Shown here: positions 4,516 to 32,495 of the stretch, one piece after another
How positions within the stretch are numbered: the first letter of the stretch is position 1
Layout: every line of letters begins with the position of its first letter
Assembly (NCBI GenBank): GCA_916048095.2
Contig: OU696585.1
Span: forward strand, 7,162,966 to 7,226,965
Length of the DNA stretch: 64,000 nt
Direction: 5' to 3'
From: Sacculina carcini
Taxonomy: Eukaryota; Arthropoda; Thecostraca; Sacculinidae
Made by a program: the position numbers and the translations under genes
Notes under the pieces: generated by a model
Databases searched by the model: none
Told to the model about the DNA's origin: nothing
What the model saw: the letters and a program-made list of their open reading frames with translations, nothing else

Positions 4516-5084
4516 TGTTGATACACTGCTTCGCTGGCATAATCTACGGAATTACGAATGATATTGCATCGTCACTGGAAAACTATCAACCTAACAGCCA
4601 ACACCTTGTCTAGACGGTGTTGCTGAATGCATGTCGTGAACACTGTCACAGCACTTCATATATAGCAAGAGTTGAGCAGCTATGATATCAGAGCTTCACG
4701 ACGACATCTTTGTTGCAGCCAACACTACCTAGATTCTAGGTGGCGTTGGCTACAACTCATGACTGAACTGTTTATTGATAGGTGGAGCTACTGCATAGTT
4801 GCAATTGCAAGCCTATTCTATCAAGGAACACAATACTTCTGCATTGATATATACATTCTGATAAGGGCATTCAGAATACTCACCTAAATATGTAGAAGTA
4901 CAAAACGTTACCTACTCATCAAAACGTTACCTAAATGCAAATAGTACTTTTTTGGTAGTTTAATGTCTTTATGTTAGAAAATATCGATTTATCTAGATAT
5001 TTATTCACCATCTTAATAAGATATAGGTTAAAGGTTAATAAGATATAGGATAAAAGGTTAACTATGTTAAGGTTAGGATACACC

Positions 5085-5470
5085 GTAGTAGAAGAGTTCA
5101 CCACTTTGTTACATTTTAACCTAACTTTTTTGTGTATACCTAACCTAACCTAACCTAACCTAACCTAACCTAACCTAACTTTTTTTAGTTTTTTTTTAAC
5201 CTAACCTAACTTTTTTAGTTTTTTTTTTTTAACCTAACCTAACTTTTTTTTTAACCTAACCTAACTTTTTTTAGTTTTTTAACCTAACCTAACTTTTTTT
5301 TTTAACCTAACCTAACTTTTTTTAGTTTTTTAACCTAACCTAACTTTTTTTAGTTTTTTTTTAACCTAACCTAACTTTTTTATAGTTTTTTTTTTAACCT
5401 AACCTAACCTAACTTTTTTTTTAACCTAACCTAACTTTTTTTAACCTAACCCAACTTTTTTTTCTTTATT
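5085..5470. repeat. Left cap: (CCTAA)n telomere-type array mixed with T-tracts
   Basis: The outer end of the left arm starts with unique sequence shared with the right arm. About eight perfect CCTAA units follow (5139-5179), then CCTAACCTAACT blocks alternating with T-runs and TTTTTAGTTTTTT. CCTAA/TTAGG is the standard arthropod telomere repeat. The C-rich strand runs 5' to 3' inwards, as at the left end of a linear chromosome. Confidence 0.85.
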
Positions 5471-5925
5471 CTATTCCTAACCCGACCCAACCCAACTTTT
5501 ACTTTTATTTCTTATTCTTCCTTTCTTATTATATTTATTCTTTATTCTATGCTCAACCTAACTTTTTTTCTTTATTCTATACCCAGCCCGACCCAATCCA
5601 ACTTTTATTTTCATTTCTTATTCTTCCTTTCTTATTATATTTATTCTTTATTCTATGCTCAACCTAACTTTTTTTCTTTATTCTATACCCAGCCCGACCC
5701 AATCCAACTTTTATTTTCATTTCTTATTCTTCCTTTCTTATTATATTTACTCTTTATTCTATGCCCAACTTTTATTTTTTATTTCCTATTCTTCCTTTCT
5801 TATTATATTTATTCTTTATTCTATGCTCAACTTTTATTTTTTATTTCCTATTCTTCCTTTCTTATTATATTTATTCTTTATTCTATGCCCAACTTTTATT
5901 TTTTTCCTTTATTTCTATTTTATGT
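5471..5925. repeat. Minisatellite of 106 bp then ~62 bp units (left arm)
   Basis: Pyrimidine-rich repeats. Two ~106 bp units carry both CAACCTAAC and CCCGACCCAATCCAAC motifs, followed by three ~62 bp units that are shortened derivatives. They apparently grew from the adjacent CCTAA/T-tract array. The Phe/Tyr/Leu-rich open frames through here are repeat translations and not genes. Confidence 0.85.
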
Positions 5926-6282
5926 CACGATACTCATTATATCGGGATCGCCAAGTCGATGTTTGGCAGAGACGTGAATATAATAATTTTCAATCATACT
6001 TGAAATATATATAAAAAACGGTTTGACTAAATCGGTCGCAAAGACAATGTTCCAATATGACGATGAATCACTCGCCACGTTTATATAAAGTGTCTGGTTT
6101 ATGTCAAATACTGCGGTAAGGATTAAAATGCCAGATGAATTCATTGGCGTCAAGCCAAGGATGAATATTTTGAATATATTTACCTGATACACAGGTATGG
6201 GATTAAAACATTTGCCGGTAACAAAGACCAAATTTACACACAATTTATGTAAATGTAGCCGAAACGAATGCTTGTGAATCAC
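5920..6282 (-). CDS. Possible small ORF of element, 120 aa, unknown
   Basis: An open frame of 120 codons at the outer edge of the gene cluster, present in both arms. It has hydrophobic and beta-like segments (LCVNLVFVTGKCF, GILILTAVFDINQTLYINV) and no recognised domain. A TATA-like TTTATATAA lies only ~10 bp upstream of the first ATG, so the true start may be the internal Met at codon 47, or the frame may be non-coding. The region also contains the 65 bp duplication with TATA motifs. Low confidence that it is expressed. Confidence 0.28.
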   Translation of the reverse strand: MIHKHSFRLHLHKLCVNLVFVTGKCFNPIPVYQVNIFKIFILGLTPMNSSGILILTAVFDINQTLYINVASDSSSYWNIVFATDLVKPFFIYISSMIENYYIHVSAKHRLGDPDIMSIVT

Positions 6283-6350
6283 TAGCTACGTTTATATAAC
6301 GTGTCTGGTTTATGTCAAACACTGACTAAATCGGATTAAAACGCTATTCG
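6067..6350. promoter_or_regulatory. Duplicated ~65 bp block with TTTATATAA core
   Basis: Two direct copies, at about 6067-6130 and 6276-6345, share AATCACT, ACGTTTATATAA, GTGTCTGGTTTATGTCAAA and GGATTAAAA. The TTTATATAA core reads as a TATA box on the minus strand in both and is palindromic in one. A duplicated promoter-like module is the simplest reading. The mirror copy lies at about 18829-19112. Confidence 0.45.
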
Positions 6351-6472
6351 ACTGTGTCGGAATTGATACAAAAATGACTTGCAACGAAATGACCTTTGTG
6401 TATTTTCACTTGATACACAATTATGGCAAATATACAAGTGGAAATCATGTAGAATCATATTGACGACACGAT

Positions 6473-6796
6473 TCAACGAACACATCGTGAACACAAATGT
6501 TTGTTGATTTTTCGATCAATCTTTATGATGTAAATCATATCGTGTGTCTCATACACAATTTCCAGCTCAGCCGACCATGTATCAGGCACAGAAACACCTT
6601 CCTGTAGAGCGTCCGAAAGACACACGTCAAACGATGTGTACTCCTTGTACGATTCGCTGATGATTTGTTTGCAATCTGACGAACTACCACCAACATATCG
6701 ATAGTTATAATTAGGCACTAGTGTAGCAGGAGAAACACAGCTCATGATGTTTATACAAAGAAAGATAAACAATGACTGTAAGAACGAAATTATCAA
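6473..6796 (-). CDS. Small ORF of element, 107 aa, possible signal-anchor
   Basis: The open frame starts with a hydrophobic stretch (IISFLQSLFIFLCINIM) resembling a signal peptide or membrane anchor. A Cys-containing hydrophilic body follows, with NYRYVGGSSSDC and a basic, Cys-bearing tail (KHLCSRCVR). A second Met at codon 18 (6745) would give a 90 aa soluble protein. No family recognised. It is divergent from the 197 aa gene at 6928, with ~130 bp between them that would hold both promoters. Identical in both arms, which says little about selection because the arms are nearly identical throughout. Confidence 0.42.
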   Translation of the reverse strand: MIISFLQSLFIFLCINIMSCVSPATLVPNYNYRYVGGSSSDCKQIISESYKEYTSFDVCLSDALQEGVSVPDTWSAELEIVYETHDMIYIIKIDRKINKHLCSRCVR

Positions 6797-6927
6797 ACAC
6801 GGAGTGATGGCGATAATTATGACGCATGCGTCGAAAAGTAGTGCAATTAGTCTCAGCCGTGATACGCAGTTGAGCTCGAGACGTTTGCGGGTGAGGTTGT
6901 GTAGTTTTTTATCGCGGAACTGTCAAG

Positions 6928-7521
6928 ATGAGTCAGGTGAATACAAACGTTGATACGTCCAAGCGGATCCTACCATTAGAACATCATGCGGTCAAGTTTG
7001 TTGCCGACACACCATTAATCTGTGGACACCCGCTGGAGCAGAGGATTTGGATTATTTTCGGACGACTGGAAAAACACAGTCAGACAGATTTCGATCACTT
7101 ACAAAAACAGCTTACAAATATTATGCAACTTGAGCGATATTTTGACCCTTTTTGGAAACTTCGTCGCGGCGCGGTCAGAATATTCACCAACGAGGAGCGT
7201 GCACTACAGATTGTGATCGATACACTTATGAGTCGGCCAATGAGAGATGCTGTTCTTGGAGCCGTTGCAGCTGCTTTATCATTCAAAGTGTTGTCGGTGG
7301 CGTTGGTGCGAAGTGACGAGACTCAGATTTACCGGCCGCGCGATGAGACCCGCAACACAATGGAGTGGATGAAGACCATTGTTATGAGCTACTATGACTC
7401 GAGAAAACAGTATTTGACCGAAACCAAGATTTATCGCGAATTTAAAGCCGACAAAATGAAAATGATTGTGCACAAGGAGGTTCAAGGTGAACCACAAAGT
7501 AAACGGAACAAAATTTGTTGA
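6928..7521 (+). CDS. Element gene, 197 aa, unknown function
   Basis: An intact frame with a good start context (AAGATGA). The protein has a His/Arg-rich N-terminal third, a predicted helical middle (DFDHLQKQLTNIMQLERYF), a short hydrophobic helix (AVLGAVAAALSFKVLSVALV, about residues 110-129) and a Lys-rich C-terminus (KADKMKMIVHKE). No Walker motif, polymerase or integrase signature is visible. It runs inwards, convergent with the capsid operon, and ends ~107 bp from the 174 aa gene. Position suggests an accessory or regulatory protein of the element. Function is not recognised; the hydrophobic helix would allow a membrane-active or virion-associated role, which is speculation. Confidence 0.6.
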   Translation: MSQVNTNVDTSKRILPLEHHAVKFVADTPLICGHPLEQRIWIIFGRLEKHSQTDFDHLQKQLTNIMQLERYFDPFWKLRRGAVRIFTNEERALQIVIDTLMSRPMRDAVLGAVAAALSFKVLSVALVRSDETQIYRPRDETRNTMEWMKTIVMSYYDSRKQYLTETKIYREFKADKMKMIVHKEVQGEPQSKRNKIC

Positions 7522-7628
7522 ATTATTCTATGTGTACGGTATACCAATACATTTCGTAATGTGTCACAAGAGTTTTATTATTGCGCGCGAAAAAAAAAAA
7601 AAAAAAAACTTTGTTATCGTTCAATTTA
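7522..7628. terminator. Convergent 3' region with A19/T19 tract and poly(A) signals
   Basis: A 107 bp gap between convergent genes. On the minus strand AATAAA overlaps the stop region of the 174 aa gene (7625-7630), and AATAATAAA follows beyond a 19-base T tract flanked by CGCGCGC. This fits shared polyadenylation for both transcripts. The mirror copy is at 17551-17657. Confidence 0.5.
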
Positions 7629-8153
7629 TTAAAATGGTAGCATGCGTGGTGTACACAGATTCATTGCATACATCAATTTAGCGAAATGTTGACAACGTAA
7701 AATACAGCAGTTTGTAGGAATGACATGATTATATGGACACGGCGTGATGTTGGGTAGTACATGTATGTTGCGTGCGTTCATGGATAAGTAGTCAGGTAGG
7801 ATGTCTTCGAGATTTTCAATGTGTAGTTCAAGTAGATGCGAAAGTCGACGAGCCTTGTCGAGTCCTTTGGCGTAGATGTGGTCGGGTGCTAGACGTTGTA
7901 TGAGGGAACTTGCGTCGCGCAGCTTTTGTTCATACTTGTGCGTGTTGTAAGGATTGTAATTATATTCCAAGCCGTGTAGGGTCGCCGTCAAAAATAGAAA
8001 ATAGTTGCGTCGCTCAACGTTGAGTTTTAAATGTGGAGGCGGTAAGATGGTGTGCCACAAGTACCCCGAACACAGGTCATGCACAACCAATTCCTTGACA
8101 ACAAAAGGCGAATCCTTGTGCTGGAAACCGTCACAGTCTACAAGTATGACCAT
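7629..8153 (-). CDS. Conserved Polinton-associated protein, ~174 aa (left arm)
   Basis: The frame is open from 8201, but the likely start is the Met at 8153, giving MVILVDCDGFQ and overlapping the protease stop by 16 bp. Features: hydrophobic N-terminal strand with acidic pair (VILVDCDGFQ), FVVKEL, a PPP motif, HGLEYNYNPYN, YAKGLDKARRL, and a C-terminal Cys/His cluster (CPYNH...CC...C). From memory, proteins with a D-x-[DE]-G-F-Q start, KEL and YVKG-type motifs sit beside capsid genes in Polinton/adintovirus-type elements of invertebrates. Their biochemical role is unknown to me. A nuclease-like fold is conceivable from the acidic strand but unproven. Last gene of the apparent five-gene cluster. 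Confidence 0.68.
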   Translation of the reverse strand: MVILVDCDGFQHKDSPFVVKELVVHDLCSGYLWHTILPPPHLKLNVERRNYFLFLTATLHGLEYNYNPYNTHKYEQKLRDASSLIQRLAPDHIYAKGLDKARRLSHLLELHIENLEDILPDYLSMNARNIHVLPNITPCPYNHVIPTNCCILRCQHFAKLMYAMNLCTPRMLPF

Positions 8154-8584
8154 ACCAGCGCTAAAAGCTGATTGTTGATAGCAGGATCGGTGGATAGGCA
8201 CGAAACGAAATCGTGCAGATCCCAGCCGGCGTCAAACAATGCAACAAATAGGGCACAGTACTGTCCACACACGTCCGAGTCCGGCGCCTGAATGACGCGC
8301 GTGTTCAACATACATCGACTGTAATTGACATGTTTGTTTATAAAATTTACAAACGAGGGATGCCAGATGGGTGAGTTGCCAGACGAGTCGAAATATTGGA
8401 GATTTTCACCGTCCCAGGCAAACACGACCCAATGCAGACCCGATTGCCAGCGCGGTTGTATATTCACAATAATTGATGTGCGCACACCACGAGCAAATGT
8501 GAAATGTTTTAGCCGGTCGCACGCCCAAACCCCTCGAAATGTGGCGACTGTGTCGAGCAGCCGTTCCAATTCAAGAGCGTTCAT
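8138..8584 (-). CDS. PRO: Adenain-type maturation protease, 148 aa (left arm)
   Basis: A C5-family (adenovirus protease-like) cysteine peptidase. The triad and oxyanion residues align with adenain by spacing: His51 followed by Trp (GLHWVVFAW), Asp66 (YFDSSG), Gln99 and Cys106 in QAPDSDVCGQYC. The Gln-to-Cys gap of seven equals that of adenain (Gln115/Cys122). At 148 aa it is a compact version of the ~200 aa adenovirus enzyme. In this family it cleaves capsid and core precursors during virion maturation. Its ATG overlaps the major capsid stop (ATGA), and the next gene starts inside its last codons, so the cluster is tightly packed. Family assignment is secure. Confidence 0.93.
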   Translation of the reverse strand: MNALELERLLDTVATFRGVWACDRLKHFTFARGVRTSIIVNIQPRWQSGLHWVVFAWDGENLQYFDSSGNSPIWHPSFVNFINKHVNYSRCMLNTRVIQAPDSDVCGQYCALFVALFDAGWDLHDFVSCLSTDPAINNQLLALVWSYL

Positions 8585-9870
8585 AGTTGAAAATCTGTGC
8601 TGACACGTCCGGCGCTGTCAATTGTGATTTCGTTTTCAAACGTGGCGTAGATTAGAACGTTAATTGTCTCGGGTAGAGCGTAGGAGAATGCCAGCTCACA
8701 CCTCACATTACCTTGTTCACGCGGATGCAAATGATCACCACCACACTGATCCGGAGTCAAATCTACAATAAACAGAGTATAGCCGGACGCATAATCATCA
8801 TGTGTGATATCCAGGCCCTGATTTTCCGTATCGAGACCGGTGCCGTCAAACAGTGACAGATACGATCTCATGTATAGACCTTTTGTGAAATCGGGGCGAT
8901 AAGGGTGTGACGGGTATGGCTCGCCATTTATATAGAACTGAAGACTGTTTAGATGGTAGTGGTGAAAATTCCATGGGTTTTTCTGTAGCGATCCATGATA
9001 CGCTTCAGTGCTTACGAGTCCCAACAGAATTTGTCGCGGCACTTGTGAGGTGAAAATATTATTCAGCGTTCCACTCATGTTTCCTTTGGGGAGAGTATAT
9101 GTTTTCAGTAGAACTCGTGGAATAGGATAACGGGCTGGTGTCTTCGCCAGCTGTTTGTGAAAATTCACCCACATCGAGTCGGATAGCGTTATTTTCTCGA
9201 CATGCACACACAGGTCGACAATTTCAATCTTGTATTCTCCCTCGGCACCGAGTAGAGCAAACTGATCAGAGTTTCGAATCAGTTTGAGTTTCTCCGAAAC
9301 TGTACCGGGCAATATACGACATTGATGGTTGGTATCCAGTTGTAGCGGTATACAAAAATCAAAAACTTTGCTTCCAGCCACCCATTGTTTGCGTTCGTTA
9401 AAACCAATGTTCAAAAGTTTAACATCATGCAAGTGTCCAGCAGTATCTTTACGCCAAAAACCCGACCGTAAATGACCGTTTTTAGCGTTCTGGTTATACG
9501 ACAACAACGTCTCAAGATAGGCACGATAGCCATACAGCGCGCTGGAATCCGATACAATAGTATCACCAATCTGGTAGTCAATCTGTTTGAAGAGAGCATG
9601 TGGTAGCAGATTGACAACGCTCACGTTGGCGTCGTCCATTAGCTCGCTACCGTCACGATTGACAACACGTGCTTTGCCATAGAGCCTGGTTTTTGATGGA
9701 CGCGTAGACGATTTACCGAGCGCAGGTAAGTGAAATTCAAACGGACCTTCGCTGCTTAGTCGACTCACTGGGTAATATACATGGGTTTTGGACGATTTCA
9801 CACTGGTTTCAAACACTGGTCGAGAGAATACCTCGGTTATTTCACAAGCGCATTCGTCTACGTTTTGCAT
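8581..9870 (-). CDS. MCP: Double-jelly-roll major capsid protein (left arm)
   Basis: Polinton/adintovirus hexon-type major capsid protein, of the family often labelled 'F54H12.2-like' in invertebrates. Recognisable landmarks run in order: an ECACEITEVF...VFETSV start, YYPVSRLSSEGPFEFHLP, LLPHALFKQIDYQIGDTIV, YGYRAYLETLLSY, SGFWRKDTAGHL, then in the second half PRQILLGLVSTEAYHGS, LNSLQFYINGEPYP and a C-terminal LAFSYALPETINVLIYATF strand. The frame is open from 9957, but the family-like start is Met30 at 9870, giving 429 aa. That start overlaps the preceding core gene by 29 bp. The protein would form the trimeric capsomers of an icosahedral shell. The frame looks whole. Confidence 0.92.
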   Translation of the reverse strand: MQNVDECACEITEVFSRPVFETSVKSSKTHVYYPVSRLSSEGPFEFHLPALGKSSTRPSKTRLYGKARVVNRDGSELMDDANVSVVNLLPHALFKQIDYQIGDTIVSDSSALYGYRAYLETLLSYNQNAKNGHLRSGFWRKDTAGHLHDVKLLNIGFNERKQWVAGSKVFDFCIPLQLDTNHQCRILPGTVSEKLKLIRNSDQFALLGAEGEYKIEIVDLCVHVEKITLSDSMWVNFHKQLAKTPARYPIPRVLLKTYTLPKGNMSGTLNNIFTSQVPRQILLGLVSTEAYHGSLQKNPWNFHHYHLNSLQFYINGEPYPSHPYRPDFTKGLYMRSYLSLFDGTGLDTENQGLDITHDDYASGYTLFIVDLTPDQCGGDHLHPREQGNVRCELAFSYALPETINVLIYATFENEITIDSAGRVSTDFQL

Positions 9871-10231
9871 TGTCAAAGATGTCGCGTTCCTGTTGACGTC
9901 GTTGACCAACACCTTTTCGTTTTGTCGGTCGTCGAGAGACTGATTGATTCGTCGCACGATTTATACTATTTATACTGGTTCGAAGAATACGTTTAGCTTC
10001 GTGTCGAGAGCGATTGCGGACGGCTTGACTTGCATTTTCTCCGTCGAGAACGTCTTGCAGTGTGCGTACCCCCGTCTTCAAGGCGGATTTGGCCAGATGT
10101 TTTGTCAGAGGTTGTTTGGCAACAGTTTTGATGGCGGGTACCACCACTCTCATTAAGCCTCTAAAAATACTCCCAAGTCCGCTACCACGCTGTATCATTG
10201 GACCTCGAAATATCAACTGAGAATTTGTCAT
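9842..10231 (-). CDS. Basic core/pVI-like minor capsid protein, 129 aa (left arm)
   Basis: The start is chosen at 10231, where ATG overlaps the upstream TGA (ATGA). The frame is open further, from 10270. The N-terminal region has IQRGSGLGSIFRGLMR, a Gly-rich then amphipathic/hydrophobic helix ending VVVPAIKTVAKQP, followed by LKTGVRTLQDVLDGENASQ and a very basic C-terminus (RRPTKRKG, NAKRRRMRL). This layout fits the small pVI/pX-like proteins between penton and hexon genes in adenoviruses and adintovirus/Polinton elements, which bind DNA or the inner capsid and include membrane-lytic helices. Exact orthology to pVI, pX or pVII is not decidable by eye. Confidence 0.72.
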   Translation of the reverse strand: MTNSQLIFRGPMIQRGSGLGSIFRGLMRVVVPAIKTVAKQPLTKHLAKSALKTGVRTLQDVLDGENASQAVRNRSRHEAKRILRTSINSINRATNQSVSRRPTKRKGVGQRRQQERDIFDNAKRRRMRL

Positions 10232-11715
10232 TGTTGTTTTTGCATAAAATGTAGTGTCAGGTACGAACAACCGTGGTGAAATGGAACCAATTGTCCATTG
10301 CTTTGTCTTATATGCACTCCCAGATCGGTAATGAACTCATCTTCCAGCGGTACATACTGAATTTGATTGAATGTTCGATGAATTTGAGGTGATTGTATAT
10401 CGTTCGTGTACGGACTGACAACACGTAATACCGGAGCCATAGTATCACCAACCATCTGCGCCTGTAGCTTGTCCATGTAGATATACAAAAATGTTGGGTT
10501 GAGTCGACTTACATCCATCACATTCGACGAGCGTGTATGTTTTTCAATAACAACGCGACTATCTGACACTACGTGGCTGGTGAACCCAAGAGCCCTAGCT
10601 ATTTTGGTGCTTACTGATACGTCAGTGTCCCCACACCATACATGTCCACCAGTATCCAGAGTGAGCACTTGTCTACCGCAAACATAGTGGAAATTTTCCA
10701 GCAGCGCCTGATTGGACATGTAGTGCCCAGTGATGAGTTGGAATGTCTCACCATCAATCTCGAATTCATTCATACGATTTTCTACATTCAGCCAGCGAGC
10801 GGAAAATGTGATTTCGGCCAGTCCAACAGTCCACGAACGATCTAGATTCAGTGGTGCCGGTAGCTGAACACGAAATTGAGATGCAGTGTTTCCAGGATAA
10901 AGATGCAGACAGCTCGAACTGTCCAACGACACATAGAAGCATTGGCTGGACATTTTTCGAAAATGCAGCGTCAAAATTAGCCCTGGGCCGGTAGTGAAAG
11001 AGAATTTCTTACGGGATTCGTCAAGGATTTTTACCTGAACAGTAGATATATTGGAATGTGACAAAGGTTTATAATACATTTGATTAAATACCAATTCTTG
11101 TATAGGCGACGTATTAATCACATGTATTTGACGGAGTTGTGGTTGCAGTGAGCGGTTGACAATTTGTGCAGCTACAAGATCTGTTTCGATAGTCAACAAT
11201 TGCGTCGAGGCTGGGTCCAACTGAAACGGTGTGGACATGACCATGGTGATATCGCTGGCGTCAAACACACCATAATGTGCATAGTGATATCGTCGTGTCG
11301 AGTGTGCTATCGATCCGTTGACATGCAATAGTCGGGAAAATTGTTCGCTTATGTGCAACACAATGTTTGTAGCCTCCAGCCATAAATGATTGTCTCGTGA
11401 TACTTTTACTTTCACATGATCGCTATTCACATGCGTTTGTAGCGCCGAAATGAACGTATCCACAGTATACTTGCCAGCATACACTGTTGATGATTTATTG
11501 AGATCGTCCGTATTTGGACTGTACTCTGAAAATATTATATCTTTGTTGAGGGTCAGCCAGTTGGTGGGCAGTAAAACAGAGTGTAAGGCCACTTGCCATT
11601 GTTGTGTATCTAAGCATAAAGGCTGAGCGAGATTCACCGAGAATTCAGCGGTGGTGTTATGTGCGAAGGTCTTAGTGCTTGCCACACTTGGCAACGTTAC
11701 ATAAAACTCATTCAT
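10228..11715 (-). CDS. Duplicated penton/minor capsid-like protein, 495 aa (left arm)
   Basis: The frame is open through an upstream microsatellite, but the real start is the Met at 11715 (MNEFYVTLPS), 40 bp downstream of TATATAAG. The protein is an internal tandem duplication. Half one begins FYVTLPS...NTTAEFSVNL...QQWQVALHSV and ends LILTLHF. Half two begins FYVSLDS...NTASQFRVQL...RSWTVGLAEI and ends YLTLHF. The FYVTLPS/'NT...F...L...W.VGL' signature is familiar from proteins beside Polinton-type capsid genes, taken as penton or minor capsid jelly-rolls. A vertex or spike role is inferred from position upstream of core, hexon and protease, the adenovirus order. No split is seen between the halves, so it appears to be one polypeptide. 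Confidence 0.82.
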   Translation of the reverse strand: MNEFYVTLPSVASTKTFAHNTTAEFSVNLAQPLCLDTQQWQVALHSVLLPTNWLTLNKDIIFSEYSPNTDDLNKSSTVYAGKYTVDTFISALQTHVNSDHVKVKVSRDNHLWLEATNIVLHISEQFSRLLHVNGSIAHSTRRYHYAHYGVFDASDITMVMSTPFQLDPASTQLLTIETDLVAAQIVNRSLQPQLRQIHVINTSPIQELVFNQMYYKPLSHSNISTVQVKILDESRKKFSFTTGPGLILTLHFRKMSSQCFYVSLDSSSCLHLYPGNTASQFRVQLPAPLNLDRSWTVGLAEITFSARWLNVENRMNEFEIDGETFQLITGHYMSNQALLENFHYVCGRQVLTLDTGGHVWCGDTDVSVSTKIARALGFTSHVVSDSRVVIEKHTRSSNVMDVSRLNPTFLYIYMDKLQAQMVGDTMAPVLRVVSPYTNDIQSPQIHRTFNQIQYVPLEDEFITDLGVHIRQSNGQLVPFHHGCSYLTLHFMQKQQ

Positions 11716-11754
11716 ATCGACCAGTACACTAAGTATATTAATGCGTTTGTCGAT

Positions 11755-11762
11755 CTTATATA
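11755..11762 (-). promoter_or_regulatory. TATA box TATATAAG (left arm capsid cluster)
   Basis: Read on the minus strand, TATATAAG lies about 40 bp before the penton-like start codon, leaving a short 5' leader. Canonical spacing for a core promoter. Confidence 0.55.
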
Positions 11763-11802
11763 CAAACAGGAAACAAAATAAACTCATATAAAAAGAAGAA
11801 AT

Positions 11803-11803
<1 letters not shown>

Positions 11804-11864
<61 letters not shown>

Positions 11865-11975
11865 GCGCGCGCGTGCTGGGCCTCGCGGTAGACCAAAACA
11901 TACGCACACGCATACACACTGACCCACGCGCGCGCGCGCGTGTGTGCCGGGGCTCTCGAAAACCTGTTCGACATG

Positions 11976-12062
<87 letters not shown>
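11804..12062. repeat. Alternating purine-pyrimidine block (left of centre)
   Basis: Successive (CA)n, (TA)n, (CG)n, then (CG)n and a long (CA)n interrupted once, with little unique sequence between. The mirror is 13105-13375, where the (TA)n is 12 bp longer. Such tracts favour Z-DNA and cruciform structures and polymerase slippage. Confidence 0.9.
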
Positions 12063-12063
<1 letters not shown>

Positions 12064-12568
12064 CGCCGCAGTGTTTAATTCTGAATTAATACTTCAAGGT
12101 GCTAACTACACCTAGATTAGCTGATACAGATGTACTGGCGATGTTGAATAAAATTTGAATTAATGAAGACTTAACGTTCGCACACACATGTGTAACCCGC
12201 ACCTAGAAATACACAGGAAAAAATAAAAGATAAAAAAGGGAACCATTCACGTAAAGCTCAATTAAATCAAAGGAACTCTGTGAAAACACACCTCATTGAG
12301 ACGTTCTAGTTTCTAGAGCTTCCAACTACTCTATACACCGCCTCTTGAATGGTGGTATGGGACGGACCGCTCTGGTGACACACACACACACACACACATA
12401 AATACAAGTGGTAAAATACACTATCATGCAGGTAATTTTTACGTCAATAAAGTAAATTATATAGAGTAACGTCAATAGTATCATCAGCATAAGATTCGAT
12501 GTCAAATAGATGTCTTACCTTCGGGTGAAATGCGTCACGAGCGGTTGAGCATCCTGGGAAAAAACCTC

Positions 12569-12598
12569 ATCCCCGCCCCACAGAACGAGAGCGAGGAA
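12569..12598. other. 30 bp unique spacer at palindrome centre
   Basis: The left arm ends ...AAAAAACCTC at 12568 and the right arm begins GAGGTTTTTT at 12599. The 30 bp between are GC-rich and not self-complementary. A short asymmetric spacer is what fold-back repair of a broken end leaves. Confidence 0.9.
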
Positions 12599-13103
12599 GA
12601 GGTTTTTTCCCAGGATGCTCAACCGCTCGTGACGCATTTCACCCGAAGGTAAGACATCTATTTGACATCGAATCTTATGCTGATGATACTATTGACGTTA
12701 CTCTATATAATTTACTTTATTGACGTAAAAATTACCTGCATGATAGTGTATTTTACCACTTGTATTTATGTGTGTGTGTGTGTGTGTGTCACCAGAGCGG
12801 TCCGTCCCATACCACCATTCAAGAGGCGGTGTATAGAGTAGTTGGAAGCTCTAGAAACTAGAACGTCTCAATGAGGTGTGTTTTCACAGAGTTCCTTTGA
12901 TTTAATTGAGCTTTACGTGAATGGTTCCCTTTTTTATCTTTTATTTTTTCCTGTGTATTTCTAGGTGCGGGTTACACATGTGTGTGCGAACGTTAAGTCT
13001 TCATTAATTCAAATTTTATTCAACATCGCCAGTACATCTGTATCAGCTAATCTAGGTGTAGTTAGCACCTTGAAGTATTAATTCAGAATTAAACACTGCG
13101 GCG

Positions 13104-13104
<1 letters not shown>

Positions 13105-13191
<87 letters not shown>

Positions 13192-13302
13192 CATGTCGAA
13201 CAGGTTTTCGAGAGCCCCGGCACACACGCGCGCGCGCGCGTGGGTCAGTGTGTATGCGTGTGCGTATGTTTTGGTCTACCGCGAGGCCCAGCACGCGCGC
13301 GC

Positions 13303-13375
<73 letters not shown>
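13105..13375. repeat. Alternating purine-pyrimidine block (right of centre)
   Basis: Mirror of 11804-12062: (GT)n, (CG)n, (TA)n and (GT)n. The (TA)n tract is 12 bp longer than in the left arm, the main length difference between the arms. Confidence 0.9.
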
Positions 13376-13376
<1 letters not shown>

Positions 13377-13416
13377 ATTTCTTCTTTTTATATGAGTTTA
13401 TTTTGTTTCCTGTTTG

Positions 13417-13424
13417 TATATAAG
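13417..13424 (+). promoter_or_regulatory. TATA box TATATAAG (right arm capsid cluster)
   Basis: Mirror of the left-arm box, 40 bp before the ATG at 13464. Confidence 0.55.
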
Positions 13425-13463
13425 ATCGACAAACGCATTAATATACTTAGTGTACTGGTCGAT

Positions 13464-14951
13464 ATGAATGAGTTTTATGTAACGTTGCCAAGTGTGGCAA
13501 GCACTAAGACCTTCGCACATAACACCACCGCTGAATTCTCGGTGAATCTCGCTCAGCCTTTATGCTTAGATACACAACAATGGCAAGTGGCCTTACACTC
13601 TGTTTTACTGCCCACCAACTGGCTGACCCTCAACAAAGATATAATATTTTCAGAGTACAGTCCAAATACGGACGATCTCAATAAATCATCAACAGTGTAT
13701 GCTGGCAAGTATACTGTGGATACGTTCATTTCGGCGCTACAAACGCATGTGAATAGCGATCATGTGAAAGTAAAAGTATCACGAGACAATCATTTATGGC
13801 TGGAGGCTACAAACATTGTGTTGCACATAAGCGAACAATTTTCCCGACTATTGCATGTCAACGGATCGATAGCACACTCGACACGACGATATCACTATGC
13901 ACATTATGGTGTGTTTGACGCCAGCGATATCACCATGGTCATGTCCACACCGTTTCAGTTGGACCCAGCCTCGACGCAATTGTTGACTATCGAAACAGAT
14001 CTTGTAGCTGCACAAATAGTCAACCGCTCACTGCAACCACAACTCCGTCAAATACATGTGACTAATACGTCGCCTATACAAGAATTGGTATTTAATCAAA
14101 TGTATTATAAACCTTTGTCACATTCCAATATATCTACTGTTCAGGTAAAAATCCTTGACGAATCCCGTAAGAAATTCTCTTTCACTACCGGCCCAGGGCT
14201 AATTTTGACGCTGCATTTTCGAAAAATGTCCAGCCAATGCTTCTATGTGTCGTTGGACAGTTCGAGCTGTCTGCATCTTTATCCTGGAAACACTGCATCT
14301 CAATTTCGTGTTCAGCTACCGGCACCACTGAATCTAGATCGTTCGTGGACTGTTGGACTGGCCGAAATCACATTTTCCGCTCGCTGGCTGAATGTAGAAA
14401 ATCGTATGAATGAATTCGAGATTGATGGTGAGACATTCCAACTCATCACTGGGCACTACATGTCCAATCAGGCGCTGCTGGAAAATTTCCACTATGTTTG
14501 CGGTAGACAAGTGCTCACTCTGGATACTGGTGGACATGTATGGTGTGGGGACACTGACGTATCAGTAAGCACCAAAATAGCTAGGGCTCTTGGGTTCACC
14601 AGCCACGTAGTGTCAGATAGTCGCGTTGTTATTGAAAAACATACACGCTCGTCGAATGTGATGGATGTAAGTCGACTCAACCCAACATTTTTGTATATCT
14701 ACATGGACAAGCTACAGGCGCAGATGGTTGGTGATACTATGGCTCCGGTATTACGTGTTGTCAGTCCGTACACGAACGATATACAATCACCTCAAATTCA
14801 TCGAACATTCAATCAAATTCAGTATGTACCGCTGGAAGATGAGTTCATTACCGATCTGGGAGTGCATATAAGACAAAGCAATGGACAATTGGTTCCATTT
14901 CACCACGGTTGTTCGTACCTGACACTACATTTTATGCAAAAACAACAATGA
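13464..14951 (+). CDS. Duplicated penton/minor capsid-like protein, 495 aa (right arm)
   Basis: Mirror copy of the left-arm gene with one visible amino-acid difference (Ile in the left arm, Thr here, in HV[I/T]NTSPIQ near the end of the first half). The start is the Met of MNEFYVTLPS; upstream codons of the open frame are microsatellite. The stop overlaps the next ATG as ATGA. Two FYV[TS]L...LTLHF halves of ~245 aa each are intact here too. Confidence 0.82.
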   Translation: MNEFYVTLPSVASTKTFAHNTTAEFSVNLAQPLCLDTQQWQVALHSVLLPTNWLTLNKDIIFSEYSPNTDDLNKSSTVYAGKYTVDTFISALQTHVNSDHVKVKVSRDNHLWLEATNIVLHISEQFSRLLHVNGSIAHSTRRYHYAHYGVFDASDITMVMSTPFQLDPASTQLLTIETDLVAAQIVNRSLQPQLRQIHVTNTSPIQELVFNQMYYKPLSHSNISTVQVKILDESRKKFSFTTGPGLILTLHFRKMSSQCFYVSLDSSSCLHLYPGNTASQFRVQLPAPLNLDRSWTVGLAEITFSARWLNVENRMNEFEIDGETFQLITGHYMSNQALLENFHYVCGRQVLTLDTGGHVWCGDTDVSVSTKIARALGFTSHVVSDSRVVIEKHTRSSNVMDVSRLNPTFLYIYMDKLQAQMVGDTMAPVLRVVSPYTNDIQSPQIHRTFNQIQYVPLEDEFITDLGVHIRQSNGQLVPFHHGCSYLTLHFMQKQQ

Positions 14952-15337
14952 CAAATTCTCAGTTGATATTTCGAGGTCCAATGATACAGCGTGGTAGCGG
15001 ACTTGGGAGTATTTTTAGAGGCTTAATGAGAGTGGTGGTACCCGCCATCAAAACTGTTGCCAAACAACCTCTGACAAAACATCTGGCCAAATCCGCCTTG
15101 AAGACGGGGGTACGCACACTGCAAGACGTTCTCGACGGAGAAAATGCAAGTCAAGCCGTCCGCAATCGCTCTCGACACGAAGCTAAACGTATTCTTCGAA
15201 CCAGTATAAATAGTATAAATCGTGCGACGAATCAATCAGTCTCTCGACGACCGACAAAACGAAAAGGTGTTGGTCAACGACGTCAACAGGAACGCGACAT
15301 CTTTGACAATGCAAAACGTAGACGAATGCGCTTGTGA
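14948..15337 (+). CDS. Basic core/pVI-like minor capsid protein, 129 aa (right arm)
   Basis: Identical in sequence to the left-arm copy. Gly-rich RGSGLGSIFRG segment, hydrophobic helix, LKTGVRTLQDVLDG, and an Arg/Lys-rich tail. Its last 29 bp overlap the start of the capsid gene. Confidence 0.72.
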   Translation: MTNSQLIFRGPMIQRGSGLGSIFRGLMRVVVPAIKTVAKQPLTKHLAKSALKTGVRTLQDVLDGENASQAVRNRSRHEAKRILRTSINSINRATNQSVSRRPTKRKGVGQRRQQERDIFDNAKRRRMRL

Positions 15338-16598
15338 AATAACCGAGGTATTCTCTCGACCAGTGTTTGAAACCAGTGTGAAATCGTCCAAAACCCATGT
15401 ATATTACCCAGTGAGTCGACTAAGCAGCGAAGGTCCGTTTGAATTTCACTTACCTGCGCTCGGTAAATCGTCTACGCGTCCATCAAAAACCAGGCTCTAT
15501 GGCAAAGCACGTGTTGTCAATCGTGACGGTAGCGAGCTAATGGACGACGCCAACGTGAGCGTTGTCAATCTGCTACCACATGCTCTCTTCAAACAGATTG
15601 ACTACCAGATTGGTGATACTATTGTATCGGATTCCAGCGCGCTGTATGGCTATCGTGCCTATCTTGAGACGTTGTTGTCGTATAACCAGAACGCTAAAAA
15701 CGGTCATTTACGGTCGGGTTTTTGGCGTAAAGATACTGCTGGACACTTGCATGATGTTAAACTTTTGAACATTGGTTTTAACGAACGCAAACAATGGGTG
15801 GCTGGAAGCAAAGTTTTTGATTTTTGTATACCGCTACAACTGGATACCAACCATCAATGTCGTATATTGCCCGGTACAGTTTCGGAGAAACTCAAACTGA
15901 TTCGAAACTCTGATCAGTTTGCTCTACTCGGTGCCGAGGGAGAATACAAGATTGAAATTGTCGACCTGTGTGTGCATGTCGAGAAAATAACGCTATCCGA
16001 CTCGATGTGGGTGAATTTTCACAAACAGCTGGCGAAGACACCAGCCCGTTATCCTATTCCACGAGTTCTACTGAAAACATATACTCTCCCCAAAGGAAAC
16101 ATGAGTGGAACGCTGAATAATATTTTCACCTCACAAGTGCCGCGACAAATTCTGTTGGGACTCGTAAGCACTGAAGCGTATCATGGATCGCTACAGAAAA
16201 ACCCATGGAATTTTCACCACTACCATCTAAACAGTCTTCAGTTCTATATAAATGGCGAGCCATACCCGTCACACCCTTATCGCCCCGATTTCACAAAAGG
16301 TCTATACATGAGATCGTATCTGTCACTGTTTGACGGCACCGGTCTCGATACGGAAAATCAGGGCCTGGATATCACACATGATGATTATGCGTCCGGCTAT
16401 ACTCTGTTTATTGTAGATTTGACTCCGGATCAGTGTGGTGGTGATCATTTGCATCCGCGTGAACAAGGTAATGTGAGGTGTGAGCTGGCATTCTCCTACG
16501 CTCTACCCGAGACAATTAACGTTCTAATCTACGCCACGTTTGAAAACGAAATCACAATTGACAGCGCCGGACGTGTCAGCACAGATTTTCAACTATGA
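15309..16598 (+). CDS. MCP: Double-jelly-roll major capsid protein (right arm)
   Basis: Mirror copy, 429 aa from the preferred Met at 15309 (the frame is open from 15222). Same landmarks as the left copy, including YGYRAYLETLLSY and SGFWRKDTAGHL. Stop and protease start overlap as ATGA. Confidence 0.92.
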   Translation: MQNVDECACEITEVFSRPVFETSVKSSKTHVYYPVSRLSSEGPFEFHLPALGKSSTRPSKTRLYGKARVVNRDGSELMDDANVSVVNLLPHALFKQIDYQIGDTIVSDSSALYGYRAYLETLLSYNQNAKNGHLRSGFWRKDTAGHLHDVKLLNIGFNERKQWVAGSKVFDFCIPLQLDTNHQCRILPGTVSEKLKLIRNSDQFALLGAEGEYKIEIVDLCVHVEKITLSDSMWVNFHKQLAKTPARYPIPRVLLKTYTLPKGNMSGTLNNIFTSQVPRQILLGLVSTEAYHGSLQKNPWNFHHYHLNSLQFYINGEPYPSHPYRPDFTKGLYMRSYLSLFDGTGLDTENQGLDITHDDYASGYTLFIVDLTPDQCGGDHLHPREQGNVRCELAFSYALPETINVLIYATFENEITIDSAGRVSTDFQL

Positions 16599-17041
16599 AC
16601 GCTCTTGAATTGGAACGGCTGCTCGACACAGTCGCCACATTTCGAGGGGTTTGGGCGTGCGACCGGCTAAAACATTTCACATTTGCTCGTGGTGTGCGCA
16701 CATCAATTATTGTGAATATACAACCGCGCTGGCAATCGGGTCTGCATTGGGTCGTGTTTGCCTGGGACGGTGAAAATCTCCAATATTTCGACTCGTCTGG
16801 CAACTCACCCATCTGGCATCCCTCGTTTGTAAATTTTATAAACAAACATGTCAATTACAGTCGATGTATGTTGAACACGCGCGTCATTCAGGCGCCGGAC
16901 TCGGACGTGTGTGGACAGTACTGTGCCCTATTTGTTGCATTGTTTGACGCCGGCTGGGATCTGCACGATTTCGTTTCGTGCCTATCCACCGATCCTGCTA
17001 TCAACAATCAGCTTTTAGCGCTGGTATGGTCATACTTGTAG
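16595..17041 (+). CDS. PRO: Adenain-type maturation protease, 148 aa (right arm)
   Basis: Mirror copy with the same His51/Asp66/Gln99/Cys106 set. The protein sequence is unchanged from the left arm. Confidence 0.93.
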   Translation: MNALELERLLDTVATFRGVWACDRLKHFTFARGVRTSIIVNIQPRWQSGLHWVVFAWDGENLQYFDSSGNSPIWHPSFVNFINKHVNYSRCMLNTRVIQAPDSDVCGQYCALFVALFDAGWDLHDFVSCLSTDPAINNQLLALVWSYL

Positions 17042-17550
17042 ACTGTGACGGTTTCCAGCACAAGGATTCGCCTTTTGTTGTCAAGGAATTGGTTGTGCAT
17101 GACCTGTGTTCGGGGTACTTGTGGCACACCATCTTACCGCCTCCACATTTAAAACTCAACGTTGAGCGACGCAACTATTTTCTATTTTTGACGGCGACCC
17201 TACACGGCTTGGAATATAATTACAATCCTTACAACACGCACAAGTATGAACAAAAGCTGCGCGACGCAAGTTCCCTCATACAACGTCTAGCACCCGACCA
17301 CATCTACGCCAAAGGACTCGACAAGGCTCGTCGACTTTCGCATCTACTTGAACTACACATTGAAAATCTCGAAGACATCCTACCTGACTACTTATCCATG
17401 AACGCACGCAACATACATGTACTACCCAACATCACGCCGTGTCCATATAATCATGTCATTCCTACAAACTGCTGTATTTTACGTTGTCAACATTTCGCTA
17501 AATTGATGTATGCAATGAATCTGTGTACACCGCGCATGCTACCATTTTAA
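17026..17550 (+). CDS. Conserved Polinton-associated protein, ~174 aa (right arm)
   Basis: Mirror copy. The preferred start is MVILVDCDGFQ at 17026, inside the protease 3' end. One silent base difference from the left arm is visible near the C-terminus. AATAAA overlaps the stop codon region (17549-17554). Confidence 0.68.
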   Translation: MVILVDCDGFQHKDSPFVVKELVVHDLCSGYLWHTILPPPHLKLNVERRNYFLFLTATLHGLEYNYNPYNTHKYEQKLRDASSLIQRLAPDHIYAKGLDKARRLSHLLELHIENLEDILPDYLSMNARNIHVLPNITPCPYNHVIPTNCCILRCQHFAKLMYAMNLCTPRMLPF

Positions 17551-17554
17551 TAAA
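17549..17554 (+). terminator. Poly(A) signal AATAAA at end of capsid cluster
   Basis: The hexamer overlaps the TAA stop of the 174 aa gene. The T19 tract and CAATAATAAAAC follow within 60 bp. Confidence 0.5.
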
Positions 17555-17657
17555 TTGAACGATAACAAAGTTTTTTTTTTTTTTTTTTTCGCGCGCAATA
17601 ATAAAACTCTTGTGACACATTACGAAATGTATTGGTATACCGTACACATAGAATAAT

Positions 17658-18251
17658 TCAACAAATTTTGTTCCGTTTACTTTGTGGTTCACCTTGAACC
17701 TCCTTGTGCACAATCATTTTCATTTTGTCGGCTTTAAATTCGCGATAAATCTTGGTTTCGGTCAAATACTGTTTTCTCGAGTCATAGTAGCTCATAACAA
17801 TGGTCTTCATCCACTCCATTGTGTTGCGGGTCTCATCGCGCGGCCGGTAAATCTGAGTCTCGTCACTTCGCACCAACGCCACCGACAACACTTTGAATGA
17901 TAAAGCAGCTGCAACGGCTCCAAGAACAGCATCTCTCATTGGCCGACTCATAAGTGTATCGATCACAATCTGTAGTGCACGCTCCTCGTTGGTGAATATT
18001 CTGACCGCGCCGCGACGAAGTTTCCAAAAAGGGTCAAAATATCGCTCAAGTTGCATAATATTTGTAAGCTGTTTTTGTAAGTGATCGAAATCTGTCTGAC
18101 TGTGTTTTTCCAGTCGTCCGAAAATAATCCAAATCCTCTGCTCCAGCGGGTGTCCACAGATTAATGGTGTGTCGGCAACAAACTTGACCGCATGATGTTC
18201 TAATGGTAGGATCCGCTTGGACGTATCAACGTTTGTATTCACCTGACTCAT
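17658..18251 (-). CDS. Element gene, 197 aa, unknown function (right arm)
   Basis: Mirror copy of the gene at 6928-7521 with no visible amino-acid change. Convergent with the capsid cluster and divergent from the 107 aa ORF. Confidence 0.6.
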   Translation of the reverse strand: MSQVNTNVDTSKRILPLEHHAVKFVADTPLICGHPLEQRIWIIFGRLEKHSQTDFDHLQKQLTNIMQLERYFDPFWKLRRGAVRIFTNEERALQIVIDTLMSRPMRDAVLGAVAAALSFKVLSVALVRSDETQIYRPRDETRNTMEWMKTIVMSYYDSRKQYLTETKIYREFKADKMKMIVHKEVQGEPQSKRNKIC

Positions 18252-18382
18252 CTTGACAGTTCCGCGATAAAAAACTACACAACCTCACCCGCAAACGTCT
18301 CGAGCTCAACTGCGTATCACGGCTGAGACTAATTGCACTACTTTTCGACGCATGCGTCATAATTATCGCCATCACTCCGTGT

Positions 18383-18706
18383 TTGATAATTTCGTTCTTA
18401 CAGTCATTGTTTATCTTTCTTTGTATAAACATCATGAGCTGTGTTTCTCCTGCTACACTAGTGCCTAATTATAACTATCGATATGTTGGTGGTAGTTCGT
18501 CAGATTGCAAACAAATCATCAGCGAATCGTACAAGGAGTACACATCGTTTGACGTGTGTCTTTCGGACGCTCTACAGGAAGGTGTTTCTGTGCCTGATAC
18601 ATGGTCGGCTGAGCTGGAAATTGTGTATGAGACACACGATATGATTTACATCATAAAGATTGATCGAAAAATCAACAAACATTTGTGTTCACGATGTGTT
18701 CGTTGA
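18383..18706 (+). CDS. Small ORF of element, 107 aa, possible signal-anchor (right arm)
   Basis: Mirror copy of the ORF at 6473-6796, same sequence. The alternative start at 18434 gives a 90 aa form without the hydrophobic leader. Confidence 0.42.
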   Translation: MIISFLQSLFIFLCINIMSCVSPATLVPNYNYRYVGGSSSDCKQIISESYKEYTSFDVCLSDALQEGVSVPDTWSAELEIVYETHDMIYIIKIDRKINKHLCSRCVR

Positions 18707-18896
18707 ATCGTGTCGTCAATATGATTCTACATGATTTCCACTTGTATATTTGCCATAATTGTGTATCAAGTGAAAATACACAAAGGTCATTTCGTTGCAA
18801 GTCATTTTTGTATCAATTCCGACACAGTCGAATAGCGTTTTAATCCGATTTAGTCAGTGTTTGACATAAACCAGACACGTTATATAAACGTAGCTA

Positions 18897-19259
18897 GTGA
18901 TTCACAAGCATTCGTTTCGGCTACATTTACATAAATTGTGTGTAAATTTGGTCTTTGTTACCGGCAAATGTTTTAATCCCATACCTGTGTATCAGGTAAA
19001 TATATTCAAAATATTCATCCTTGGCTTGACGCCAATGAATTCATCTGGCATTTTAATCCTTACCGCAGTATTTGACATAAACCAGACACTTTATATAAAC
19101 GTGGCGAGTGATTCATCGTCATATTGGAACATTGTGTTTGCGACCGATTTAGTCAAACCGTTTTTTATATATATTTCAAGTATGATTGAAAATTATTATA
19201 TTCACGTCTCTGCCAAACATCGACTTGGCGATCCCGATATAATGAGTATCGTGACATAA
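18897..19259 (+). CDS. Possible small ORF of element, 120 aa (right arm)
   Basis: Mirror copy of 5920-6282 with the same doubts about its start and expression. Confidence 0.28.
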   Translation: MIHKHSFRLHLHKLCVNLVFVTGKCFNPIPVYQVNIFKIFILGLTPMNSSGILILTAVFDINQTLYINVASDSSSYWNIVFATDLVKPFFIYISSMIENYYIHVSAKHRLGDPDIMSIVT

Positions 19260-19700
19260 AATAGAAATAAAGGAAAAAAATAAAAGTTGGGCATAGAATA
19301 AAGAATAAATATAATAAGAAAGGAAGAATAGGAAATAAAAAATAAAAGTTGAGCATAGAATAAAGAATAAATATAATAAGAAAGGAAGAATAGGAAATAA
19401 AAAATAAAAGTTGGGCATAGAATAAAGAGTAAATATAATAAGAAAGGAAGAATAAGAAATGAAAATAAAAGTTGGATTGGGTCGGGCTGGGTATAGAATA
19501 AAGAAAAAAAGTTAGGTTGAGCATAGAATAAAGAATAAATATAATAAGAAAGGAAGAATAAGAAATGAAAATAAAAGTTGGATTGGGTCGGGCTGGGTAT
19601 AGAATAAAGAAAAAAAGTTAGGTTGAGCATAGAATAAAGAATAAATATAATAAGAAAGGAAGAATAAGAAATAAAACTAAAAGTTGGGTTGGGTCGGGTT
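19260..19700. repeat. Minisatellite of ~62 bp then 106 bp units (right arm)
   Basis: Mirror of 5471-5925, purine-rich on this strand. Not coding. Confidence 0.85.
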
Positions 19701-20093
19701 AGGAATAGAATAAAGAAAAAAAAGTTGGGTTAGGTTAAAAAAAGTTAGGTTAGGTTAAAAAAAAAGTTAGGTTAGGTTAGGTTAAAAAAAAAACTATAAA
19801 AAAGTTAGGTTAGGTTAAAAAAAAACTAAAAAAAGTTAGGTTAGGTTAAAAAACTAAAAAAAGTTAGGTTAGGTTAAAAAAAAAAGTTAGGTTAGGTTAA
19901 AAAACTAAAAAAAGTTAGGTTAGGTTAAAAAAAAAGTTAGGTTAGGTTAAAAAAAAAAACTAAAAAAGTTAGGTTAGGTTAAAAAAAAACTAAAAAAAGT
20001 TAGGTTAGGTTAGGTTAGGTTAGGTTAGGTTAGGTTAGGTATACACAAAAAAGTTAGGTTAAAATGTAACAAAGTGGTGAACTCTTCTACTAC
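19701..20093. repeat. Right cap: (TTAGG)n telomere-type array mixed with A-tracts
   Basis: GTTAGGTTAGGTT blocks alternating with A-runs, ending in about eight perfect TTAGG units (19999-20041) and ~50 bp of unique sequence shared with the left end. The G-rich strand points outwards, as at the right end of a linear chromosome. Homology to the left arm stops at about 20093-20096. Confidence 0.85.
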
Positions 20094-32146: not shown

Positions 32147-32495
32147 CCGGCCCCAGTGCAACACTTGCACTCAAACACAACGCCAGGACAACGCTAAACC
32201 CAACATATAAATGAGAAATAATGAGAACCGAAACCTCCATCAGTGTCGTCTCTGACTCAATACAACACGGATGAACTGACAATACATCACAAAAAACACT
32301 ACCAGTGTCCACCGTAAGTTTAATAACATGTAAATAAGCAACGCAATACAAAAGATCGGAGTCCACTCGGGCGTGGTCACTGATCGCGATTGTGATAAGA
32401 TATCAGCAGCGCAACACACGTTTAAACAACTAAACGCCAACAAGCAACTGAATACAACAGTAGCTTCACAAACATGTAAAAAAAAACAATGACAA

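Follow-up and report, generated by a model that had tools for sequence, protein, structure and literature searches.

Known Systems and the Locus

The closest described systems are the Polinton/Maverick elements and the adintoviruses of animals. Vertebrate Mavericks are approximately 17 kb long, possess terminal inverted repeats (TIRs), and carry eight conserved open reading frames (ORFs) in nearly all intact elements (PMC8097293). Replication of Polintons is believed to proceed through linear molecules with protein priming, and no Polinton virions have been observed (PMC8097293). The present analysis concerns a 64,000-nucleotide stretch of the Sacculina carcini genome (the window, C20:7162966-7226965, within a 264-Mb, 43-contig assembly), in which a 15-kb palindrome has as its source a Polinton/Maverick-like element that is present in many copies in this genome. 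The palindrome is the capsid end of such an element twice, with the core and the other end missing, and it is probably an integrated snap-back (copy-back) defective genome of that element.

Defective genomes of adeno-associated virus (AAV) include left- and right-end snapbacks (5'-SBG and 3'-SBG), symmetric and asymmetric, as well as internal deletions (PMC8235507). In adenoviruses, incomplete particles contain variable-length DNA fragments from one genome end, and in poxviruses the terminal repeats are extended and mirrored and the genome ends are cross-linked (PMC5033970; PMC9415595). The product classes given for AAV (both-end palindromes, unpaired loops, and internal deletion) are the same as those found here, but unlike the AAV products, the palindromes here are chromosomal insertions flanked by target-site duplications (TSDs). 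AAV is a single-stranded parvovirus not known to have an rve integrase, and poxviruses are not known to use one. Some adenovirus defective DNAs, in work attributed to Daniell in 1976, are reportedly inverted duplications of one end; such DNAs have been described in particles, whereas those considered here are inherited insertions. AAV snapbacks, one-ended adenovirus DNAs, and the TIRs and integrase-mediated insertion of Polintons are known, and palindromic Polinton copies would be new; open-literature searches gave no palindromic Polintons among the matches listed, though a report in a subscription journal could exist.

A Near-Perfect Palindrome with Authentic Ends

The window element occupies 5087-20091 (15,005 bp) and consists of two 7.48-kb arms flanking a 30-bp loop. 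Self-blastn matches 5078-20101 to its own reverse complement at 99.64%, and base-by-base alignment of the arms yields five substitutions (at 5502, 6043, 7647, 11117, and 11161), a 1-bp homopolymer indel at 5219, and a 12-bp (AT)6 indel at 11820, for an arm divergence K of 5/7481 = 0.00067. These two analyses confirm the near-perfect 15-kb palindrome with ~7.5-kb arms and a 30-bp centre described in the initial annotation, and arms of 7.5 kb at such identity cannot be a product of chance; the palindrome is real. Its centre (12569-12598) pairs only partly in the arm alignment. The edges proposed earlier, 5085 and 20093, are indeed the outermost symmetric bases, but the element proper ends 2 bp further in on each side, as the outer 2 bp of symmetry belong to the TSD. 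The element starts with AGTAGAAGAG... at 5087 and ends with ...CTCTTCTACT at 20091, ACCGT abuts both termini (5082-5086 and 20092-20096), and the host flanks on the two sides are unlike each other. The structural features are as follows:

5082-5086, unstranded: left TSD ACCGT, identical to 20092-20096
5087-12568, minus strand: left arm, the element's capsid end in inverted orientation
5087-6228, unstranded: left TIR proper of the parent, ~1.14 kb, inner edge placed by symmetry from 18951
12569-12598, unstranded: loop at the centre, where the palindrome turns, with an imperfect stem in its outer part; in full-length-type copies L032 and L034 it runs directly into the right arm
12599-20091, plus strand: right arm, the element's capsid end; full-length-type copies L032 and L033 are collinear with it over their right 7.5 kb where fetched
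18951-20091, unstranded: right copy of the parent TIR proper, matched by L032:56-1192 (against 20091-18951) at 97.3%
20092-20096, unstranded: right TSD ACCGT

Fold-back chimeras are a known long-read error. An assembly artefact here, either a chimeric fold-back read or mis-joined haplotypes, nevertheless has next to no probability given the unlike flanks, the perfect duplication, the real differences between the arms (the five substitutions and two indels), and six further loci with duplications.

The Parent Element Family

Scored matches in the genome comprise at least 92 capsid, 145 integrase, 150 R (a 197-aa protein that serves as the capsid-end marker genome-wide), and 104 family B DNA polymerase (PolB) fragment relatives, all lower bounds since only the best candidates were scored. 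The full-length-type copy C6a (C6:6405056-6422127) spans 17.07 kb between ~1.14-kb TIRs. Beside its left TIR are an rve integrase (L032:1217-2020; PF00665, E-value 2.9e-12), an A32-type ATPase (PF04665, 5.8e-8) and a 1032-aa PolB (L032:4361-7459; PF03175 DNA_pol_B_2, 3.2e-47). Its right end matches the window arm at 12569-20091 with 98-99% identity where fetched, placing the capsid module opposite the integrase end. TIRs measure ~1.14 kb in C6a and C6b and 0.9-1.05 kb in C35a, and C6b (C6:6577427-6587949, 10,523 bp) resembles an internal deletion.

The parent family thus possesses an rve integrase, PolB, a double-jelly-roll major capsid protein (MCP), an adenovirus-like protease, an A32-type ATPase, and TIRs, and in its PF03175-group PolB, adenain-like protease, and length of ~17 kb it likewise agrees with Polinton/Maverick elements and adintoviruses. 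Judging by its family, the polymerase would be of the protein-primed kind. The duplication differs, being 5 bp here (10 of 10 copies) versus the 6 bp given for vertebrate Mavericks, and the family is therefore termed Polinton/Maverick-like.

The TIRs in the window contain arrays of CCTAA at 5138-5460 and 19720-20040, with 32 occurrences of CCTAA and none of TTAGG in 5087-5970. CCTAA is the insect-type telomere motif, and the arrays are oriented as at real chromosome ends; another CCTAA-containing repeat lies in the initial part of the small contig C28 (L047), the sole host chromosome end that was read. A linear-chromosome-like reading of the arrays was dropped because they are also part of the TIRs of full-length-type copies.

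Termini and Target-Site Duplications

A perfect 5-bp duplication lies directly outside the terminal motif in all ten copies for which both termini were read, and a 6-bp duplication in none of them. These ten comprise seven palindromes (the window on C20, C26, C24, C35, C3, C16, and C9) and three other copies (C6a, C35a, and C6b). When flanks were swapped between loci as a control, 2 of 90 pairs matched. Since the termini of the window palindrome are the same as those of full-length copies and carry the 5-bp duplication, the element was most likely inserted already as a palindrome; as both termini are genuine, the integrase could have inserted it.

A comparison of the left TIR of the window with its right one gives one substitution and one homopolymer base, against identities of 95.8, 83.9, and 95.7% between left and right TIRs in the three non-palindromic copies, where the differences are mostly gaps in repeats. 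Such near-identity would follow from a palindrome holding one end twice. Simple fold-back by break and fusion within a copy already inserted, one of the origins initially suggested, is disfavoured, as it would duplicate one host flank and leave no perfect outer duplication; together, the duplications and the near-identical TIRs argue against fold-back after insertion, short of invoking a further exchange mediated by the TIRs.

Palindromes at Other Loci

A search for the same arrangement elsewhere, suggested in the initial annotation, recovered at least six more palindromes in the genome, derived from both element ends. Seven palindromes with inverted outer ends and duplications are therefore available, four of the capsid end (including the window) and three of the integrase end:

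C26:1700521-1713607: capsid-end palindrome, 13,087 bp; arms read whole, self-complementary at 99.5%
C24:3354983-3367204: capsid-end palindrome, 12,222 bp; arms read whole, 99.4%, with a ~0.7-kb non-symmetric centre
C35:1145457-1163303: capsid-end palindrome, 17,847 bp; arms and ends read
C3:10316226-10326996: integrase-end palindrome, 10,771 bp; edges and centre read
C16:5863696-5876928: integrase-end palindrome, 13,233 bp; edges and centre read
C9:4203364-4221013: integrase-end palindrome, 17,650 bp; edges and centre read

In C35, the arms are inverted copies of each other over their outer 2.3 kb, with 8 substitutions in 2298 positions. In C3, C16, and C9, respectively, the outer edges are inverted copies over 175, 155, and 364 columns at 100, 100, and 99.5% identity, the arms meet at the centre, and the distances from the two ends differ by 0, 0, and 2 bp for the integrase and by 16, 96, and 16 bp for PolB. 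Arm divergence is 0.00067 in the window, 0.00215 in C26, 0.00244 in C24, and 0.00348 in the outer 2.3 kb of C35; divergence this low says that these four palindromes are young.

The abundance of the family (at least 92 MCP and 145 integrase matches) means that neighbouring copies occur, and each palindrome might then be two adjacent, independent insertions in opposite orientation. This was rejected and is scarcely credible: on either outer side, all seven carry a single terminal motif and a single duplication, none of the termini listed falls between the two ends (C35 being judged by its loci), and the distances of the capsid or integrase genes from the two ends mirror each other to within 0-18 bp.

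Census of Bounded Elements

At least one of four marker genes (integrase, PolB, capsid, and R) is carried by 38 of 56 terminus-bounded elements. The census rests on the best 159 of 191 termini; C35 was added from its loci and stands outside the 38, as do 18 of the resulting 57 bounded elements that lack the four markers. Among the 38, 26 have the standard integrase-to-capsid order, 8 bear the same marker inverted at both ends, and 4 are untypable. The eight same-end elements are the six palindromes other than C35 together with C4:8196071-8214902 and C2:3783727-3800354. Palindromes are 10.8-17.85 kb long and the 19 standard four-gene elements 16.1-22.6 kb; one "standard" element of 28.7 kb (C3:4400579-4429266) holds two integrases and may be two elements. 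PolB pairs less than 20 kb apart are divergent (-+) in seven cases and ++ in one, with no +- or -- pairs, and when integrase, R, or capsid pairs are taken by themselves, the orientation tests are weak (P 0.03-0.05).

The most serious competitor to a replicative origin is a post-insertion event, in which a full-length copy folds back during fork progression or repair, copies one end outward, and rejoins through TIR homology, keeping the duplication. The TIRs are long enough for such exchange (~1.14 kb in C6a) and 84-96% alike in three copies, and the junction microhomology described below equally fits chromosomal template switching. It is nonetheless unlikely, in that two linked events would be required at each of seven loci, and the same-end share of 8/38, the origin from both ends, and lengths never above the standard range fit replication products better.

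Several bounded elements deserve separate mention. C2:3783727-3800354 has R at 1666-1667 bp from both ends and a single capsid gene, and in place of its integrase end there seems to be a short capsid-end copy in inverted orientation; the mirror-image ends of poxviruses (PMC9415595) resemble this R..M..R element. The 18 marker-less elements (e.g., C4:8643108-8657618 and C1:9528446-9543571), 13 of which are 12.8-19.7 kb long, have the same termini and no integrase, PolB, capsid, or R match, and are perhaps another subfamily or other cargo using the same ends. Divergent integrase pairs of near-equal geometry occur at C37:3447983-3459772, 4122318-4133872, and 4149143-4160699, two of them with paired, unequal PolB pieces; this trio is possibly one asymmetric snap-back, copied or duplicated. 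With 160 matches, the L060 flank probe proved to be too common a repeat to tell whether the C37 sets stem from a single duplication. For the symmetric integrase sets at C3:7390544-7400455 and C37:4122318-4133872, the evidence is gene order only.

The Turns

Base-level comparison of turns with parental sequence covers the window, C3, and C16, the turns of C26, C24, C9, and C35 not being comparable, and in all three palindromes the turn lies at an inverted repeat. Full-length-type copies read AACCTCTCATCC...GAGGAAGAGGCTTTTTCCC where the window palindrome reads GGGAAAAAACCTCATCC...GAGGAAGAGGTTTTTTCCC, and the window turn uses CCTC/GAGG. The left arm of C3 matches the parent (L032) as far as 5699 and comes back at 5533; in the parent, 12 of the 13 overlap bases are complementary. 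C16 matches it as far as 6806 and comes back at 6775, with 12 of 14. When fold-back points were drawn at random in this parent, the overlap averaged 1.3 bp, and the C3 and C16 lengths were reached in 0.39 and 0.37% of 20,000 draws each, in a control designed after the junctions had been seen.

The six sequenced centres (window, C26, C24, C3, C16, and C9) map to different points, so the six mapped turns are separate events. The C26 turn has an 8-nt loop, and its centre is at the place of the gene for a 495-aa protein. The window centre falls within the ORF L032:9297-9644 of a full-length-type copy, and the palindrome therefore looks like a derived form. Both this fold-back inside a parental ORF and the single occurrence of the junction 19-mer in the genome leave a new element architecture, which had been raised at the outset, without support in the sense of a self-propagating palindrome.

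A related proposal treats the palindromes not as a by-product but as a second genome with a function under selection, acting through capsid dosage or as an interfering satellite. Both MCP copies in the window are open, found at 100% without stops in the capsid search of the genome, and AAV snapback genomes alter capsid and rep expression (PMC8235507). Selection is still very improbable here, as the C26 and C24 centres lie elsewhere, integrase-end palindromes exist too, and the window junction is unrepeated, which is the pattern of errors. A broader version, somewhat speculative and itself quite doubtful, is that palindromic half-genomes are a regular, inherited second form, with capsid-end and integrase/polymerase-end molecules as complementary satellites that full-length copies mobilise and insert in trans. 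Were that true, satellites would shape capsid dosage or interfere with the full-length form, and the germline would be a fossil record of defective genomes.

A T in the window arms, where two full-length-type copies have C, was considered as a scar of the snap-back. This was weakened by three other loci that match the arm-side sequence around the T as well as the right arm of the window does, and the difference may be ordinary variation.

A Probable Snap-Back Origin

Protein-primed family B polymerases copy linear DNA from its ends. A linear parent with ~1.14-kb TIRs would replicate outside the chromosome, and a strand growing from the capsid end would halt ~7.5 kb in. Its 3' end would fold back, pair with itself at a short inverted repeat (CCTC/GAGG, ~40 nt apart), and be extended back to its own starting end. 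Copying of this hairpin prior to integration would yield linear double-stranded DNA in which one and the same end, with its capsid module and TIR, stands on both sides. The element integrase, presumably supplied in trans by a full-length copy, would insert this DNA like any other copy, giving the 5-bp TSD. The same accident at other points and from either element end could account for the other palindromes in the genome. Of the origins proposed in the initial annotation, a head-to-head replication product or hairpin intermediate fits best, given the authentic termini, the 5-bp duplication, the palindromes from both ends, and the inverted repeats at the turns. Three features by which a snap-back is recognised were found, namely inverted copies of the same end around a loop, a turn at a parental inverted repeat, and origin from both ends.

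Several observations weigh against a snap-back origin. The evidence comes from the assembly only, and the exact parent of the window arms was not found in the genome. Chromosomal fold-back with TIR exchange could also keep the duplication intact. C35 is known from its arms and ends only, and C3, C16, and C9 from their edges and centres; from the 96-bp difference in PolB spacing, the C16 arms probably differ by an indel of about that size. Three of the seven palindrome duplications (C26, C3, and C9) sit in CA repeats and are weaker, and no terminus was found in the stretches fetched at four further copies (L045/L046, L057/L059, L060/L062, and L063/L065). Symmetric gene sets at C4:8196071-8214902, C4:11575753-11595492, and C37:3447983-3459772 are not self-complementary at the predicted centre and have either large unpaired centres or another origin; all three are among the four copies whose fetched stretches gave no terminus, the fourth being L045/L046. 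The first of these has integrase and PolB at both ends and no self-complementary 600-bp centre; both its ends are given by the terminus pattern search, though none appeared in the fetched stretches. At the turns, the window homology is just 4 bp, folding of its 36-nt inner hairpin was matched by 12 of 200 shuffles, and the longest exact inverted repeats in the neighbourhood of the turns, 9 bp for C3 and 7 bp for C16 and in both cases off the turn, do not exceed those of shuffles (means 8.1 and 7.6). The window junction 19-mer was sought at 0 mismatches, and no junction has been shown to recur at independent loci.

If the palindromes are snap-backs, their authentic termini and duplications constitute indirect evidence for a free linear intermediate as the integrase substrate, because such replication would leave snap-back palindromes. 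They also contain a built-in clock: the arms would be identical at the start, so that their divergence dates insertion as that of long terminal repeats does (0.0007 in the window to 0.0035 in the outer part of C35). Inverted same-end pairs in other genomes would reveal recently replicating Polinton families.

Genes of the Window Arms

The palindrome carries no integrase, ATPase, or PolB, and each arm holds the same genes:

15222-16598, plus strand: MCP, 458 aa, double-jelly-roll fold
8581-9957, minus strand: MCP, left-arm copy
16595-17041, plus strand: adenain-like protease (Peptidase_C5), 148 aa; PF00770, E-value 3.8e-8
8138-8584, minus strand: adenain-like protease, left-arm copy
13464-14951, plus strand: 495-aa protein, no assigned function
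10228-11715, minus strand: 495-aa protein, left-arm copy, start placed by symmetry
14909-15337, plus strand: 142-aa basic protein, no family above its cut-off
9842-10270, minus strand: 142-aa basic protein, left-arm copy
16978-17550, plus strand: 190-aa protein, no assigned function
7629-8201, minus strand: 190-aa protein, left-arm copy
17658-18251, minus strand: R, inward-pointing
6928-7521, plus strand: R, left-arm copy
18383-18706, plus strand: 107-aa ORF, no assigned function
6473-6796, minus strand: 107-aa ORF, left-arm copy

The initial annotation had both gene sets diverging from the centre, which holds for the capsid, the protease, and their neighbours but not for at least one inward gene per arm (6928-7521 and 17658-18251). 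Bracovirus proviral DNA contains Maverick genes. The capsid model had as its top match in the viral structure library an uncharacterized protein of Cotesia sesamiae Mombasa bracovirus (UniProt R9XLG5) at 27% identity, with low TM-scores of 0.38/0.35, and this likeness concerns the one protein compared. Neither the capsid protein nor alignment A1 found a relative when searched against viral contigs. No gene was recognised as a penton (minor capsid) in this element family, and the PF16903 profile had no match anywhere, controls included. The homolog search with the 495-aa protein gave no match, and its single-sequence model (pLDDT 31) is too poor to use. A PHROGs search yielded nothing usable, and Rfam and tRNA searches found nothing.

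Other Features of the Window

Outside the palindrome, flank ORFs of at least 80 codons with high amino-acid entropy were considered. A fragment at 26228-26533 appears to resemble the end domain of a Penelope-like retroelement. Direct repeats at 31665-32146 and 38210-38691, equal at 481 of 482 bases, surround an 1840-aa ORF and delimit a retrotransposon (31665-38691), presumably of the BEL/Pao type, which looks very recent. Further along, 57695-59230 is composed of approximately 110 head-to-tail copies of the 14-bp unit TGTCGTGTCAGTGA, with 93% matches.

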